Assembly (NCBI GenBank): GCA_002238865.1
Contig: MPNE01000001.1
Span: forward strand, 248,001-312,000
Reading direction: 5' to 3'
Length of the DNA: 64,000 nucleotides
Source of the DNA: Gemmatimonadetes bacterium bin94
Lineage (GTDB): Bacteria > Gemmatimonadota > Gemmatimonadetes > Longimicrobiales > Gaopeijiaceae
Shown: one piece after another, positions 129-4,164 of the stretch
Layout of the letters: each line of letters starts with the position of its first letter
How positions within the stretch are numbered: position 1 is the stretch's first letter
The notes under the pieces: generated by a model
Seen by the model: the letters and a program-made list of their open reading frames with translations, nothing else
The model's database searches: none
Told to the model about the DNA's origin: nothing
Program-made: the position numbers and the translations under genes

Positions 129-1061
129 TCACAGATACCGTACTCCTTGGAGGCGAACGGTCCGCCAAGCGTCGGAGCGGTGGATGGTGGCGCGCCGTGG
201 CTGCCGAAGGGCCTCCTTCTCCAGCGCCACGCTGCGCTGCAACGCGGCTTGCAGCCCTCCGTACTCGTCGAGGATCTCGACCGCGCCCTCGATGATCGCG
301 CGCTCGATCCGGGCAAGCTCCCGGGCCACCATGGGGTCGGGATCGGCGGTGCCGGAGGCTTCGGTCCAGTAGCGCATCACCTTCCTGGCCCGCGCGACCT
401 GCCGAGACGTGCGGGCGACCACGACCGCCTCGACCGACCGGCCCAGAGTTCCGAGCGCCAGCCAGAGTTCCCGGTGCGCCCTGCCCCACGACCGGAGCGC
501 GGTCGCGGTGTCGTGGCCCGGATCGACGTAGACGAACACGGCGCGCTCGGAGTCCAGCGCGACGGGCAGCTTGACGTGGAAGTACCGGCGCGTCGTTCCG
601 GCGGCGCCCCGGTACACCCGGACGGGCAGGAGCCCGCGCCCGATCCCGAGCGCGTCGAACGCGGCAACCTTCTCGGCCTCGGTCGGGAGCCACGGCAGGT
701 CCGGATGCTCGATCACATGTTCGAGCGACAGCAGGCGGCGCAGGAGGACGACCGAGGAAGCGGTCCTGCGGTGGCGGATGTGCTCCGCGCCGAGCGCGCG
801 GTAGAGTCTCCGCGCGTAGATCCGGCACACACGCCCGATCCCCCGAACGCGCGGTACGGTCTCCTCGGCCGCCAGCCCCTGCGCGATCAGCGCATGAACC
901 ATGCGCCGCGCCCGTTCGTGGTGCGTGTTCAGGAACGCCGTCGCCTGCGTGCGGGTGAACACCCCGCTGTGAAGGCATACCAAGGCGATCCACTCGGCCT
1001 TGCGGCCCTTCCAGCCGAACCGCTCCAGGGCCTCCGCTCGTTCTTCGAGACGGGCGGTCAT
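129..1061 (-). CDS. Winged-helix protein of accessory/mobile-element type
   Basis: A 310-residue protein whose first ~90 residues look like a winged helix-turn-helix (a stretch beginning WIALVCLHSGVFTRTQA, then a helix with RRMVHALIAQGL). The rest is Arg-rich with no membrane segment or signal peptide. The arrangement resembles replication-relaxation (Replic_Relax-like) proteins found on plasmids and integrative elements, but no diagnostic motif can be named. Its ATG overlaps the stop of the upstream HTH/AlpA-like gene (ATGA), so the two are one translation-coupled operon. The role is presumably DNA binding in element replication, transfer or regulation; this is inference. Confidence 0.55.
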   Translation of the reverse strand: MTARLEERAEALERFGWKGRKAEWIALVCLHSGVFTRTQATAFLNTHHERARRMVHALIAQGLAAEETVPRVRGIGRVCRIYARRLYRALGAEHIRHRRTASSVVLLRRLLSLEHVIEHPDLPWLPTEAEKVAAFDALGIGRGLLPVRVYRGAAGTTRRYFHVKLPVALDSERAVFVYVDPGHDTATALRSWGRAHRELWLALGTLGRSVEAVVVARTSRQVARARKVMRYWTEASGTADPDPMVARELARIERAIIEGAVEILDEYGGLQAALQRSVALEKEALRQPRRATIHRSDAWRTVRLQGVRYL

Positions 1062-1603
1062 CGCTTCGCCCGCGTCGCCAGCCCTCGGCCGGTCCCGGTC
1101 CCTTCAACGTGTCGGCGTTTCGCGATCCGGTCGCGGAGCCAATCATCCAGTTCCGACTCGATCCAGCCCACGGCACGCGCGCCCAGCGGGACCGGCTTGG
1201 GGAACCGCCCCGCAGCCACCATCACATAGATCGTGCTCCGTGACAGGCCCGTGCGGGCCATCACCTCCGGCAGCCGCACGAAGCGGACCGAACGGGACGT
1301 TCCGGGCTCCGTCTGTTGTTTGCTCATCGCTCTGTTCCTCTTCGCCTTCTTCGTTCTCGATGCAGGTTTCCTGTACCGGGGTCGGTGGGGCTTATGGCGC
1401 GCACCGCCCGACTCCCGGTCGAAGCCGGAAATGAACGCCAGAACACGGTCCGCCGTCCGCAACGTCGGCGAGCGACCGCCTTCGATCCGGCGCATGAGGT
1501 TCGGGTCGCCCAGCGCCATCCTGCCGAACCTCGTCCGGCTCAGGCCCGTGTCGTCGAGAAACCCGCTAACCCGTGTGCTGAAGTACTCTTGCAGCGTCTC
1601 CAT
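1058..1603 (-). CDS. Two-domain regulator: XRE-like HTH joined to AlpA-like HTH
   Basis: One frame carries two DNA-binding modules. Residues ~1-60 resemble a small lambda/XRE-type HTH (GLSRTRFGRMALGDPNLMRR, then a recognition-like segment). After a basic Lys/Arg linker, residues ~105-165 are a typical AlpA/excisionase-like winged HTH (VRFVRLPEVMARTGLSRSTI, then YVMVAAGRFPKPV). An in-frame ATG at 1327, preceded by AGAGGA at suitable spacing, could make the AlpA module alone. The ATG at 1603 was chosen over an in-frame TTG at 1639 because the HTH homology begins there. AlpA-family proteins regulate prophage or element integrase genes, so this marks the region as accessory. It is coupled to the winged-helix gene downstream. 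Confidence 0.65.
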   Translation of the reverse strand: METLQEYFSTRVSGFLDDTGLSRTRFGRMALGDPNLMRRIEGGRSPTLRTADRVLAFISGFDRESGGARHKPHRPRYRKPASRTKKAKRNRAMSKQQTEPGTSRSVRFVRLPEVMARTGLSRSTIYVMVAAGRFPKPVPLGARAVGWIESELDDWLRDRIAKRRHVEGTGTGRGLATRAKR

Positions 1604-1639
1604 GCCTGAACGCTGAAAGCCCTTGCGCGGGGCCGTCAA

Positions 1640-1940
1640 CCTGTAGGAAATTGTCCACAGTCCCGGGACGTTTCAGGACGTTCCGCAACGCCTCCGGCCC
1701 GTGAGACGCCGCCGCCAGCGGCGCGCGAAACTCCCCCCTCGCCGCTAATGGGGACACCTGCACCACGAGGGTGGATTTCGACCGGCAAGACCGGCCTGAG
1801 GGTGATCCTGCGAAACCATCGCCAACCGGCACGCCGGGACCTCGCCCAAGCGGATTTGCGCTTCAGAGAACGATCCGCTACCTTTCCGCTGTAGTTCTAC
1901 TTTTTACATTCACCCAGCAGCTACGAAGGAGAACAGTGAG
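1640..1940. other. Intergenic region between divergent accessory operons
   Basis: About 300 bases separate the minus-strand HTH operon from the plus-strand cassette. No convincing ORF is visible. It contains the heptamer GGACGTT twice at 10-bp spacing (1666 and 1676), a candidate operator. The last ~60 bases are clearly more AT-rich (T-runs around 1890-1912), as expected for a promoter of the cassette, but no clean -35/-10 pair could be fixed. AAGGAG at 1926-1931 is the Shine-Dalgarno of the next gene. Confidence 0.5.
1666..1682. repeat. Tandem heptamer, candidate operator
   Basis: GGACGTT occurs at 1666-1672 and again at 1676-1682, exactly one helical turn apart, in the space upstream of the HTH/AlpA-like gene. 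Direct repeats one turn apart in front of a regulator gene are a common autoregulatory operator layout. The assignment is inference. Confidence 0.3.
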
Positions 1941-2258
1941 ATGCGACCCACCATGATTCTGCGTACTGTCCGCCATGTCTTCGGATCCGATAGGATGCGC
2001 GCGACGAGGCACATGCTCTCCGCAGTCGTCGTGCTCGGCTTCCTCGTCGTGGGTCTTCTTCAGTTTCGCACCTCGACAGCGACCGCCCAGGCGCCGCTGT
2101 CCTGCGGGCACTTTTCCGGCGATCTTTGCAATATCGAATGCGAGAAGTCGCCGTGGTGGTGCGTGTGGTGTGGAGAGTACCGTTGCGATCTGGACTGGTG
2201 GATGACTCCGGATGACATTCCGGGGCCGCCAGCATGTGACGCCACCTGTGTCGGCTGA
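1941..2258 (+). CDS. Small exported Cys-rich peptide precursor
   Basis: A 105-residue protein not recognised as a known family. Residues ~26-41 form one hydrophobic segment followed by a signal-peptidase-like AQA at 49-51, so residues 52-105 are probably exported. That mature part holds eight Cys (55, 63, 67, 74, 77, 82, 99, 103), enough for four disulfides, including a CxxC (CVWC, 74-77), and is rich in Trp. The start at 1941 has AAGGAG nine bases upstream; M19 would give a more normal signal-peptide length. It is followed closely by a membrane-anchored thioredoxin-fold-like protein and a beta-propeller lipoprotein, with which it probably forms an operon. A secreted signal or structural peptide is possible; the function is unknown. 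Confidence 0.6.
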   Translation: MRPTMILRTVRHVFGSDRMRATRHMLSAVVVLGFLVVGLLQFRTSTATAQAPLSCGHFSGDLCNIECEKSPWWCVWCGEYRCDLDWWMTPDDIPGPPACDATCVG

Positions 2259-2784
2259 GAGGACATTAGGTCTCTCACGTTGGCGGTTCCTGCTCGGGCG
2301 CCGATTGCGATTCCTGCGACACTGGAAGATCGCCACCTGTTTCGCCGCTTGCTCGCTCTTCACGGCGGCGGCACTCCTGCAATTCGCAGCTGGACGTGAA
2401 CTGGACGGACACATTCGCGAAATGGCCACCTTGGGCGGTGGCGTACTCTTGGTGATGTCTGAAGCGGACTGCGCTGAAGTAGCTCCCGTGTCCGAGGCTG
2501 TCGCGGAAATCCTTGCTACTGCTGGGGTGCGGATCACGGGTCTGGTGCTTCCCTATGGTTTGGGTCGAATGGACGAGTTGCTCGCGGCAGGCAACGATCA
2601 CTTTCCGCACTTTGCCGTTTCCAGTCGCGTGGGACCGCTGCTGGGCCGCATAGGGACTCCGGTCGCAATGGCCATCGGCCCCTCGGGCCGCGTCGGGGCG
2701 GCTGAGCGATACGGGCTGGAGGGACTCTCCGGCGCCGAGGGGCTCGCGAGGCGCTTGATGGCCAGCGTGGGAGCGGACCGTTGA
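2212..2784 (+). CDS. Membrane-anchored thioredoxin-fold-like protein without CxxC
   Basis: A 190-residue protein with one N-terminal membrane helix (~40-60, containing CFAAC) and a soluble C-terminal part. That part reads like a thioredoxin fold: a beta strand GGGVLLVMSEADC, a helix, a second strand ITGLVLPYG, then TPVAMAIGPSGRV (149-161), where Thr-Pro matches the cis-Pro loop of redoxins. The active-site CxxC is reduced to a single Cys87. The ATG at 2212 overlaps the peptide gene by 47 bases; GTG 2248 is an alternative start. The stop overlaps the TTG of the next gene. A partner for redox handling of the Cys-rich peptide is suggested by context only. The fold call is pattern-based, not proven. 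Confidence 0.5.
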   Translation: MTFRGRQHVTPPVSAERTLGLSRWRFLLGRRLRFLRHWKIATCFAACSLFTAAALLQFAAGRELDGHIREMATLGGGVLLVMSEADCAEVAPVSEAVAEILATAGVRITGLVLPYGLGRMDELLAAGNDHFPHFAVSSRVGPLLGRIGTPVAMAIGPSGRVGAAERYGLEGLSGAEGLARRLMASVGADR

Positions 2785-3863
2785 GTACCCGCGCCGCCCT
2801 CGGTATGGTGCTGTTGGCTGTCGCTGGATGCAGCGTGGAGGAAGCAGTTCCCTCGACTCCGGTCAATCTCTTCGACCAAGCGGCGGCACCGGTGGTCACG
2901 AGGCGAGTGGCCTTTGATACGTTGTGGGTATACGGCGGGGCAACCGATACAATCATGCTGAACGCCGACCGCGTGGCGGCGTTTCCGAGCGGCGACGCTG
3001 CGGTCCTTGATTTGGCGGGTCGCCGGGTTCATAGAGTGGGAGCCAATGGAGTCGTGTGGTCGTGGGGAACAAGGGGTGAGGGGCCTGGAGAAATCGACCA
3101 TGTAAGGGACCTGGACGTGAACGCCCAAGGAGAAGTGGTGCTCGCTGATACCGGCAACGGTAGGCTGCTCTGGGTGTCAGGAGGGGATGGAACGTGGCTC
3201 CGAGAGGTGGGGCTGCCGGAGGGCACAATCAACGTCGACGCTGTGGCGTCCTTGGAGGGCGATCACTACATTTTGTCGTCGCTGATGTATGCCACAGCCC
3301 TCGCGACCCCTGATTCGAATTCACGGGGACCGATCACGGCCTATCGGTGGGTGCGGTTGTCCGCAACGGGGGAAATGGAAGGGCTGGTTCCCTTCCCGTG
3401 GGACGGCTTCCACTCTATGTCCTTTCTTCAAACGGTCGGAAGTATCGCGGGTGCCCGATCGTCCTCAGGGGGTGGCCAACGGTGGGTATTCGGGTTTGGT
3501 TTGGGTAACGGTTTCTTTGTTTTCAACGACAGTGTGGCAGAACCGTACCCGTATGTGCGCCATGCGGACTTCCCAGAAGTCGAGACAGGAGGCTTGACGG
3601 GCGGTAGGGACGGGTTCCGAGTCGGCTTTCCTGAAGGTCCTCCTGAACGAGTGGCACGTGATATGGCGATTCGAGGCGACACCGTTTTTGTGCTCGCTGG
3701 CAACTACTGGGAAATAGATCGCTATGAGTCGGCTACCGGCCAGTACTTGGACTCGATGCTGCTGCCCGTACCGTTGTCCCAGTTTGCTGTGGGACGCGAT
3801 GCGCTCATCGGTATCGTTGCCGGCGGAATGTACCCGCAAGTAATTGCGCTGAGAGCGAAGTAG
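2781..3863 (+). CDS. 6-bladed beta-propeller lipoprotein
   Basis: A 360-residue protein starting at a TTG that overlaps the previous stop. The N-terminus has a lipoprotein signal with lipobox AVAGC (Cys17), so it is membrane-anchored outside the cytoplasm. The body shows repeated blade-like units with motifs such as GEGPGEIDHVRDLDV and GEVVLADTGNGRLLWV, typical of NHL/DUF5128 6-bladed propeller proteins. Base composition is visibly less GC-rich than in the core genes downstream. In Bacteroidota similar propellers lie next to small exported peptides (NVEALA type). Binding or sensing of the upstream peptide is a reasonable inference but unproven. It ends the cassette. Confidence 0.75.
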   Translation: MSTRAALGMVLLAVAGCSVEEAVPSTPVNLFDQAAAPVVTRRVAFDTLWVYGGATDTIMLNADRVAAFPSGDAAVLDLAGRRVHRVGANGVVWSWGTRGEGPGEIDHVRDLDVNAQGEVVLADTGNGRLLWVSGGDGTWLREVGLPEGTINVDAVASLEGDHYILSSLMYATALATPDSNSRGPITAYRWVRLSATGEMEGLVPFPWDGFHSMSFLQTVGSIAGARSSSGGGQRWVFGFGLGNGFFVFNDSVAEPYPYVRHADFPEVETGGLTGGRDGFRVGFPEGPPERVARDMAIRGDTVFVLAGNYWEIDRYESATGQYLDSMLLPVPLSQFAVGRDALIGIVAGGMYPQVIALRAK

Positions 3864-3913: not shown

Positions 3914-4066
3914 ATGGCCCACGACACGGGACTTCACCGCTGCCGGGTTCCCGCCAATGGCATCCGGTTATCCAGCTACGGTGACCTGATCGAGTGGGAG
4001 TGCATCCAAGGGCAAGAAGGGCAGATCGTGCAGTCCTGTATCAACTTACGTGACTTCTTGCCGTGA
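3914..4066 (+). CDS. Small hypothetical ORF (50 aa)
   Basis: An ATG-started 50-codon frame ending at TGA 4064-4066. The peptide has a plausible globular composition (contains [13 protein letters not shown] and two Cys) but no recognisable domain, no clear Shine-Dalgarno and no signal peptide. It may be a remnant of a decayed gene or a chance frame; the frame is also open upstream to within the propeller gene. Confidence 0.2.
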
Positions 4067-4164
4067 CTTGCGATTCCTCTGTTCTGCCAGCCCGGCGCCT
4101 CACCGCTCTCGGTGCTCGCGCGGATTCATCCACGGGCTGCTGGCAGCTTCGCCGGGAATCCCCG

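Follow-up and report, generated by a model that had tools for sequence, protein, structure and literature searches.

Closest described systems

In Bacteroidota, genes for NVEALA peptides, which are small, exported, and Cys-containing, lie next to genes for exported six-bladed DUF5128 propellers. Anchored thioredoxins of the DsbE/ResA class carry out established thiol-disulfide work outside the cytoplasm, and a lone N-terminal Cys permits mixed disulfides and isomerisation, not net oxidation. NHL-type propellers, in turn, are mostly binding platforms, commonly for proteins. Finally, in pediocin operons a disulfide peptide is encoded together with PedC, a putative thiol-disulfide oxidoreductase (PMC4919988).

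The gene trio described here was found in a 64,000-nucleotide stretch of a Gemmatimonadota genome (the window; G000:C22:248001-312000), and its resemblance to NVEALA/DUF5128 pairs and to pediocin operons is one of layout alone. With the former it has in common a small exported Cys peptide beside an exported six-bladed propeller; it differs in having a dedicated gene for a monothiol thioredoxin-fold protein (gene 2) and in failing to match the respective profiles. PF14055 (NVEALA) matched neither the window peptide nor nine relatives and gave no match over cut-off in any of 23 genomes of the genus, and NVEALA membership of the peptide was rejected. PF17170 (DUF5128; cut-off 22.9 bits) did not match the window propeller and matched 2 of 12 propellers below cut-off, at 19.2 and 18.0 bits. 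The loose parallel with these pairs that the original prediction had drawn thus survives as an analogy of layout and fails at the level of profile membership. A literature search returned no paper on NVEALA, DUF5128, or the combination.

Pediocin-type class IIa operons (pedA/B/C/D) likewise combine a secreted disulfide peptide with a dedicated thiol-disulfide protein (PMC4919988), the disulfides on the side of the trio being presumed ones. The trio, known here from its genes, differs in its Sec signal, which takes the place of the pediocin-type leader and ABC exporter (no transporter gene lies within the trio at the loci read), and in its propeller lipoprotein (gene 3), where pediocin-type operons encode a small helical immunity protein. 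Gene 2 shares the fold and N-terminal anchor of the TlpA/ResA/DsbE(CcmG) membrane-anchored thioredoxins and departs from them in its lone Cys, which stands in an [DE]C motif without CxxC. Gene 3 shares fold (Z 25) and profile similarity (1e-40) with the NHL propellers of TRIM71, Brat, and the PknD sensor, and unlike these is an exported lipoprotein without further domains. Neither the peptide nor gene 2 is named by any Pfam, NCBIfam, PHROG, or PADLOC model, and the PADLOC anti-phage defence profiles matched none of the three trio proteins. An exported, putatively disulfide-rich peptide family that has a thioredoxin-fold helper and a propeller of its own is therefore apparently undescribed in the libraries and literature searched, in agreement with the earlier claim that this exact trio lacked a prior description. 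It is the gene system that constitutes the new part, and it could prove to be a variant of the bacteriocin operon.

The trio and its reading frames

The three genes occupy one strand of the window at 1941-2258, 2236-2784, and 2781-3863, and overlap one another. The features of the locus are as follows.

1856..1884, + strand: candidate operon promoter, TTGCGC-N17-TACCTT, sigma70-like, predicted by reading the sequence
1926..1931, + strand: ribosome-binding-like AAGGAG ahead of the peptide start, kept in G083 and G334
1941..2258, + strand: exported 8-Cys peptide, 105 aa, whose frame and complete set of 8 Cys are retained in G083 and G334
2236..2784, + strand: membrane-anchored monothiol thioredoxin-fold protein (gene 2), 182 aa, assigned by AlphaFold and fold matches
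2781..3863, + strand: six-bladed NHL-type beta-propeller lipoprotein (gene 3), 360 aa, assigned by AlphaFold and lipobox

The putative promoter is kept as TTGC-N17/18-TACCTT in the orthologous loci of genomes G083 and G334, where much other upstream DNA has diverged. Gene 2 begins at a conserved GTG at 2236 (the listed ORF opens at 2212) and overlaps the peptide gene by 23 nt, and the TTG start of the propeller gene at 2781 overlaps the gene 2 stop (TTGA); start overlaps of this kind suggest that translation is coupled. The G083 and G334 orthologues keep all three frames, with dN/dS values of 0.12-0.34 overall (peptide 0.19-0.34, thioredoxin-fold protein 0.16-0.32, propeller 0.12-0.16). The closely packed genes for exported or anchored products, the small 8-Cys exported peptide, and the beta-propeller lipoprotein of the original prediction are hence borne out, and the peptide frame, whose loss would have spoken against the proposal, is maintained under purifying selection.

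Recurrence of the trio in Gemmatimonadota

Gene 2 served as bait for locus searches in genomes that are mostly metagenome assemblies; genes were called with a simple codon-bias script, the best candidates per genome were scored, and genome fractions are to be read as lower bounds. Gene 2 first led to loci in G083, G067, and G075/G081 and, on contig C55, to another locus of the window's own genome, each of which carries a propeller and at least one Cys-rich peptide. A gene 2 profile added loci in G230, G292, G194, G015, G011, and G087, and propeller searches added those in G334, G330, and G077. Trio genes also occur in named metagenome-assembled Gemmatimonadota records, including the closed Longimicrobiales chromosome OX638356. 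In G213 (L040), genes 2 and 3 are present and no intact peptide was found. A match in G010 (L025) was discarded as a false match inside an aconitase-like gene, and a plasmid search with the propeller of family f5 returned no match.

After the addition of two distant members (families f3 and f4, found by profile A6), the widened gene 2 profile matches at least 44 of the 395 Gemmatimonadota genomes sampled; these fall into 16 of 138 genera and into families f1, f2, f3, f4, f5, and f7. This spread across the phylum overturned our early view that gene 2 is nearly restricted to one family. Twenty distant loci were then chosen by gene 2 similarity alone, their neighbours not being known beforehand. 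A Cys-containing exported peptide lies beside gene 2 in all 19 evaluable loci (L245 is cut by a contig end), against a chance expectation of about 0.004 peptide calls per kb and strand. The propeller is adjacent in 18 of the 20, being missing in L250 and about 1.1 kb away in L236, and the gene order is mostly that of the window. Within the genus, the peptide profile A8 matches 9 of the 10 genomes in which gene 2 is present and none of the 13 in which it is absent (E < 0.001; Fisher P = 1.2e-5). In many genomes of family f5, the chromosomal genes on either side of the trio are the same, and these constant flanks point to vertical inheritance there. Recurrence across at least six Gemmatimonadota families establishes the trio as a real module; the co-occurrence elsewhere on which the original prediction had staked itself, with variable peptides, is found in abundance.

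The exported peptides

The window peptide carries a hydrophobic, signal-like helix at about residues 24-50 followed by its 8 Cys, spaced 7,3,6,2,4,16,3, and belongs to no Pfam or NCBIfam family. In the G083 and G334 comparisons, dN/dS is 0.09-0.28 for the mature half, the better conserved of the two, and 0.21-0.40 for the signal part, values by which the mature peptide is judged to be under purifying selection. Peptides were sought on both strands with a filter that required a small exported ORF to start with ATG or GTG, to have an RBS-like site, and to contain 4 or more Cys; it was drawn up after the first peptides were known and before the 20 new loci were examined. It found a peptide at 8 of 11 non-redundant thioredoxin plus propeller loci (10 of 11 by eye) and made a single call in 133 kb of control DNA, both strands included; such small exported Cys-rich ORFs are so rare that the window peptide is not a chance ORF.

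The family set comprises 35 peptides, non-redundant at 80% identity, four of which were picked out by eye after the filter had missed them (L022, L086, one from L015, and L240). After the signal, a C-x(6-8)-C motif opens 33 of the 35, the two C-x4-C exceptions both coming from locus L249; later Cys are separated by variable loops, and an aromatic tail of the Y.Y or YW type is frequent. On these sequence features, the peptides vary between loci and yet form one family. Loci carry one to three different tandem copies, with three different ones in G230, G292, G194, and G077. The mature Cys count ranges from 2, in the reduced L240 peptide, to 8, and is even in 35 of 35 peptides; under random parity the chance of this is 3e-11, a figure to be read with the reservation that related peptides are not fully independent. 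The even counts are the best sequence evidence that the peptide Cys pair, and they fit disulfide maturation. Profile A8 finds the window peptide and its relatives at trio loci only, save two weak matches; G202 has a weaker match at a contig edge, and G083 a second, weak one to a CC-type peptide.

A monothiol thioredoxin fold

The AlphaFold model of gene 2 (mean pLDDT 90) shows a helix at residues 13-65 followed by a thioredoxin fold. Its nearest solved folds are DsbE, ResA, DsbF, and CcmG (best Foldseek E 3e-4 to 4e-4), with VIA Z scores of 10-11 to DsbE/ResA-class folds and 11.1 to DsbE itself; the absence of a relative from the fold-library lists was never used as an argument. Pfam thioredoxin profiles matched none of 11 among 12 gene 2 proteins and gave E 0.32 for the remaining one. 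The protein has the features of the TlpA/ResA/DsbE class, namely the thioredoxin fold, the N-terminal anchor, and a cis-Pro, the last in a TP motif that is invariant in the alignments. By position Cys79 corresponds to the first Cys of a CxxC; it is preceded by Asp or Glu ([DE]C) and is likewise invariant in the alignments, from which the second active-site Cys is absent. With one active-site Cys, gene 2 has a thioredoxin fold and is no CxxC redoxin, so that the predicted redoxin-like anchor holds for fold and anchor and fails for the redox motif. Every examined locus has at least one gene 2 copy with [DE]C. At L255 (1423-3565) the peptide stands before a Cys-less gene 2 copy (HPRDT), which is followed by the propeller and a second gene 2 copy with PEDC.

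The propeller lipoprotein and its solo copies

The gene 3 model (pLDDT 80) is a six-bladed NHL propeller that superimposes on the Brat NHL domain with a VIA Z of 25.4 over 260 residues (rmsd 3.0); its profile matches the TRIM71 NHL domain at 1e-40, and a lipobox, LAVAGC, is read from the sequence. Its structural matches include LRP6 with Dkk1, a Cys-rich ligand. Gene 2 distances between loci correlate with those of gene 3, with a Mantel r of 0.85 for 10 close loci and 0.77 for 34 loci; such joint divergence is expected for parts of one device, and linkage alone could also give it. An idea that the propeller is a peptidyl-amidating lyase (PAL), derived from the C-terminal Gly of the window peptide and a PAL Z of 20, was rejected: the Gly is not conserved in the peptides, and no monooxygenase partner was seen.

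Solo propellers, 81-84% identical to that of the window and under purifying selection, occur in five genomes (L013, L080-L083), at loci that have only this coding sequence in common and carry neither gene 2 nor a trio-type peptide. The propeller must therefore have some use alone. A distant propeller, at L094 76-2285 and L096 2246-4419, has CxxxGC-type peptides on either side and no gene 2; a peptide of this type occurs together with gene 2 in L249.

A model for the module and its alternatives

The class to which gene 2 belongs, the binding role of NHL propellers, and the joint divergence of genes 2 and 3 lead us to favor, tentatively, a reading in which the monothiol gene 2 anchor acts on the peptide, folding or holding it, and the propeller binds it. 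The operon would yield a small Sec-exported peptide whose Cys pair into disulfides outside the cytoplasm. Gene 2, with its N-terminal helix in the membrane and its thioredoxin domain outside, would use its single Cys to isomerise, fold, or temporarily hold the peptide via a mixed disulfide, and the propeller, a lipoprotein of the envelope, would bind the folded peptide as a dedicated partner, be it as receptor, carrier, or complex subunit. If so bound, the peptide would be no enzyme but a ligand acting outside the cell or in the envelope, and its physiological role might be that of a signal, an envelope subunit, or a bacteriocin. Several points count against this explanation: catalytic thiols do not usually follow an acidic residue, as the lone Cys does here, propellers occur without peptide or gene 2, L250 lacks a propeller, L255 has a Cys-less gene 2 copy, and L240 has a 2-Cys peptide. 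More speculatively, the trio may represent a phylum-wide Gemmatimonadota system in which diversified disulfide-rich peptides are served by a monothiol chaperone and cognate propeller readers, a ligand-receptor logic that would be new for bacteria. Gemmatimonadota, a large and poorly understood phylum that, judging by the names of several isolates, probably includes sponge-associated lineages, thereby gain a testable extracellular peptide system, and gene 2 is a naturally occurring example of a thioredoxin fold that has one cysteine and is presumably dedicated to a single kind of substrate.

An unlikely reading, albeit one with several observations in its favor, is that of a bacteriocin-like cassette, in which the disulfide peptide, folded by gene 2 and secreted, would kill or inhibit neighbours, and the producer would be shielded by a propeller that binds the peptide. 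The solo propellers resemble orphan immunity genes, yet we know of no precedent for a 360-aa propeller as an immunity protein. Strong differences between the peptides of different loci, and their tandem arrays, would suit such a cassette; within orthologues, however, the peptides are under strong purifying selection. Similarly, the window copy adjoins integrase, TraG-like, and AlpA genes, whereas the fixed chromosomal site and flanks in f5 are unlike typical bacteriocin loci. Pediocin operons do couple their disulfide peptide with PedC (PMC4919988), but no transporter gene is present at the trio locus.

Appreciably less probable is a redox or metal relay, with the peptide as a thiol carrier or metal ligand exchanging electrons with gene 2 and the propeller as a scaffold. 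The redox fold and invariant Cys of gene 2 and the Cys-rich peptides are compatible with such a device; the second active-site Cys, however, is missing everywhere, Cys counts from 2 to 8 and variable loops are unlike a conserved electron carrier or metal site, and no haem, copper, or DsbD-like gene was noticed beside the trio. That the three genes are unrelated neighbours, travelling together on the mobile element whose genes adjoin the window copy or by chance, is scarcely credible and already contradicted by their recurrence in at least six families with differing flanks and by the fixed chromosomal flanks in f5.

Genomic surroundings of the window copy

To the left of the trio (window 129-1639; L047 8456-11831) lie genes for an integrase, a TraG/TrwB-like coupling protein, and an AlpA-type regulator, and a 310-aa protein without family is also encoded among these mobile-element genes. 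G083 and the window have the AlpA gene plus trio block in common and differ in the right flank, and G334 and the window have only the trio in common. The shared block and the differing flanks indicate that the window copy has probably moved. A further copy of the mobile element, in G083 (L206), adjoins a different CC-type peptide.

A 12-mer, TGCCAGCCCGGC, that occurs on the left side of the integrase and again to the right of the trio was considered as an att site. It belongs to a dispersed intergenic repeat, so the att repeat was withdrawn and the ends of the element are left undefined. The repeat (window 4007-4110) is built from two modules, one of 60 bp that has the inverted arms GGCAAGAAG...CTTCTTGCC and one of 26 bp that contains TGCCAGCCCGGC; the genome holds no fewer than 31 matches to it, and four relatives hold 19-42.

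A second peptide system was also noticed, in which CC-rich peptides (CC....YCC..CC....C....DC) occur with a TlpA-like protein (L132 440-2575, L131 5206-6898, L130 405-1860, and L015 4394-5780). It further includes an ECF sigma factor, an anti-sigma factor, and an LptF/G-like membrane protein (names assigned by eye), as well as one S8 peptidase, and one copy of this system lies directly beside a trio.
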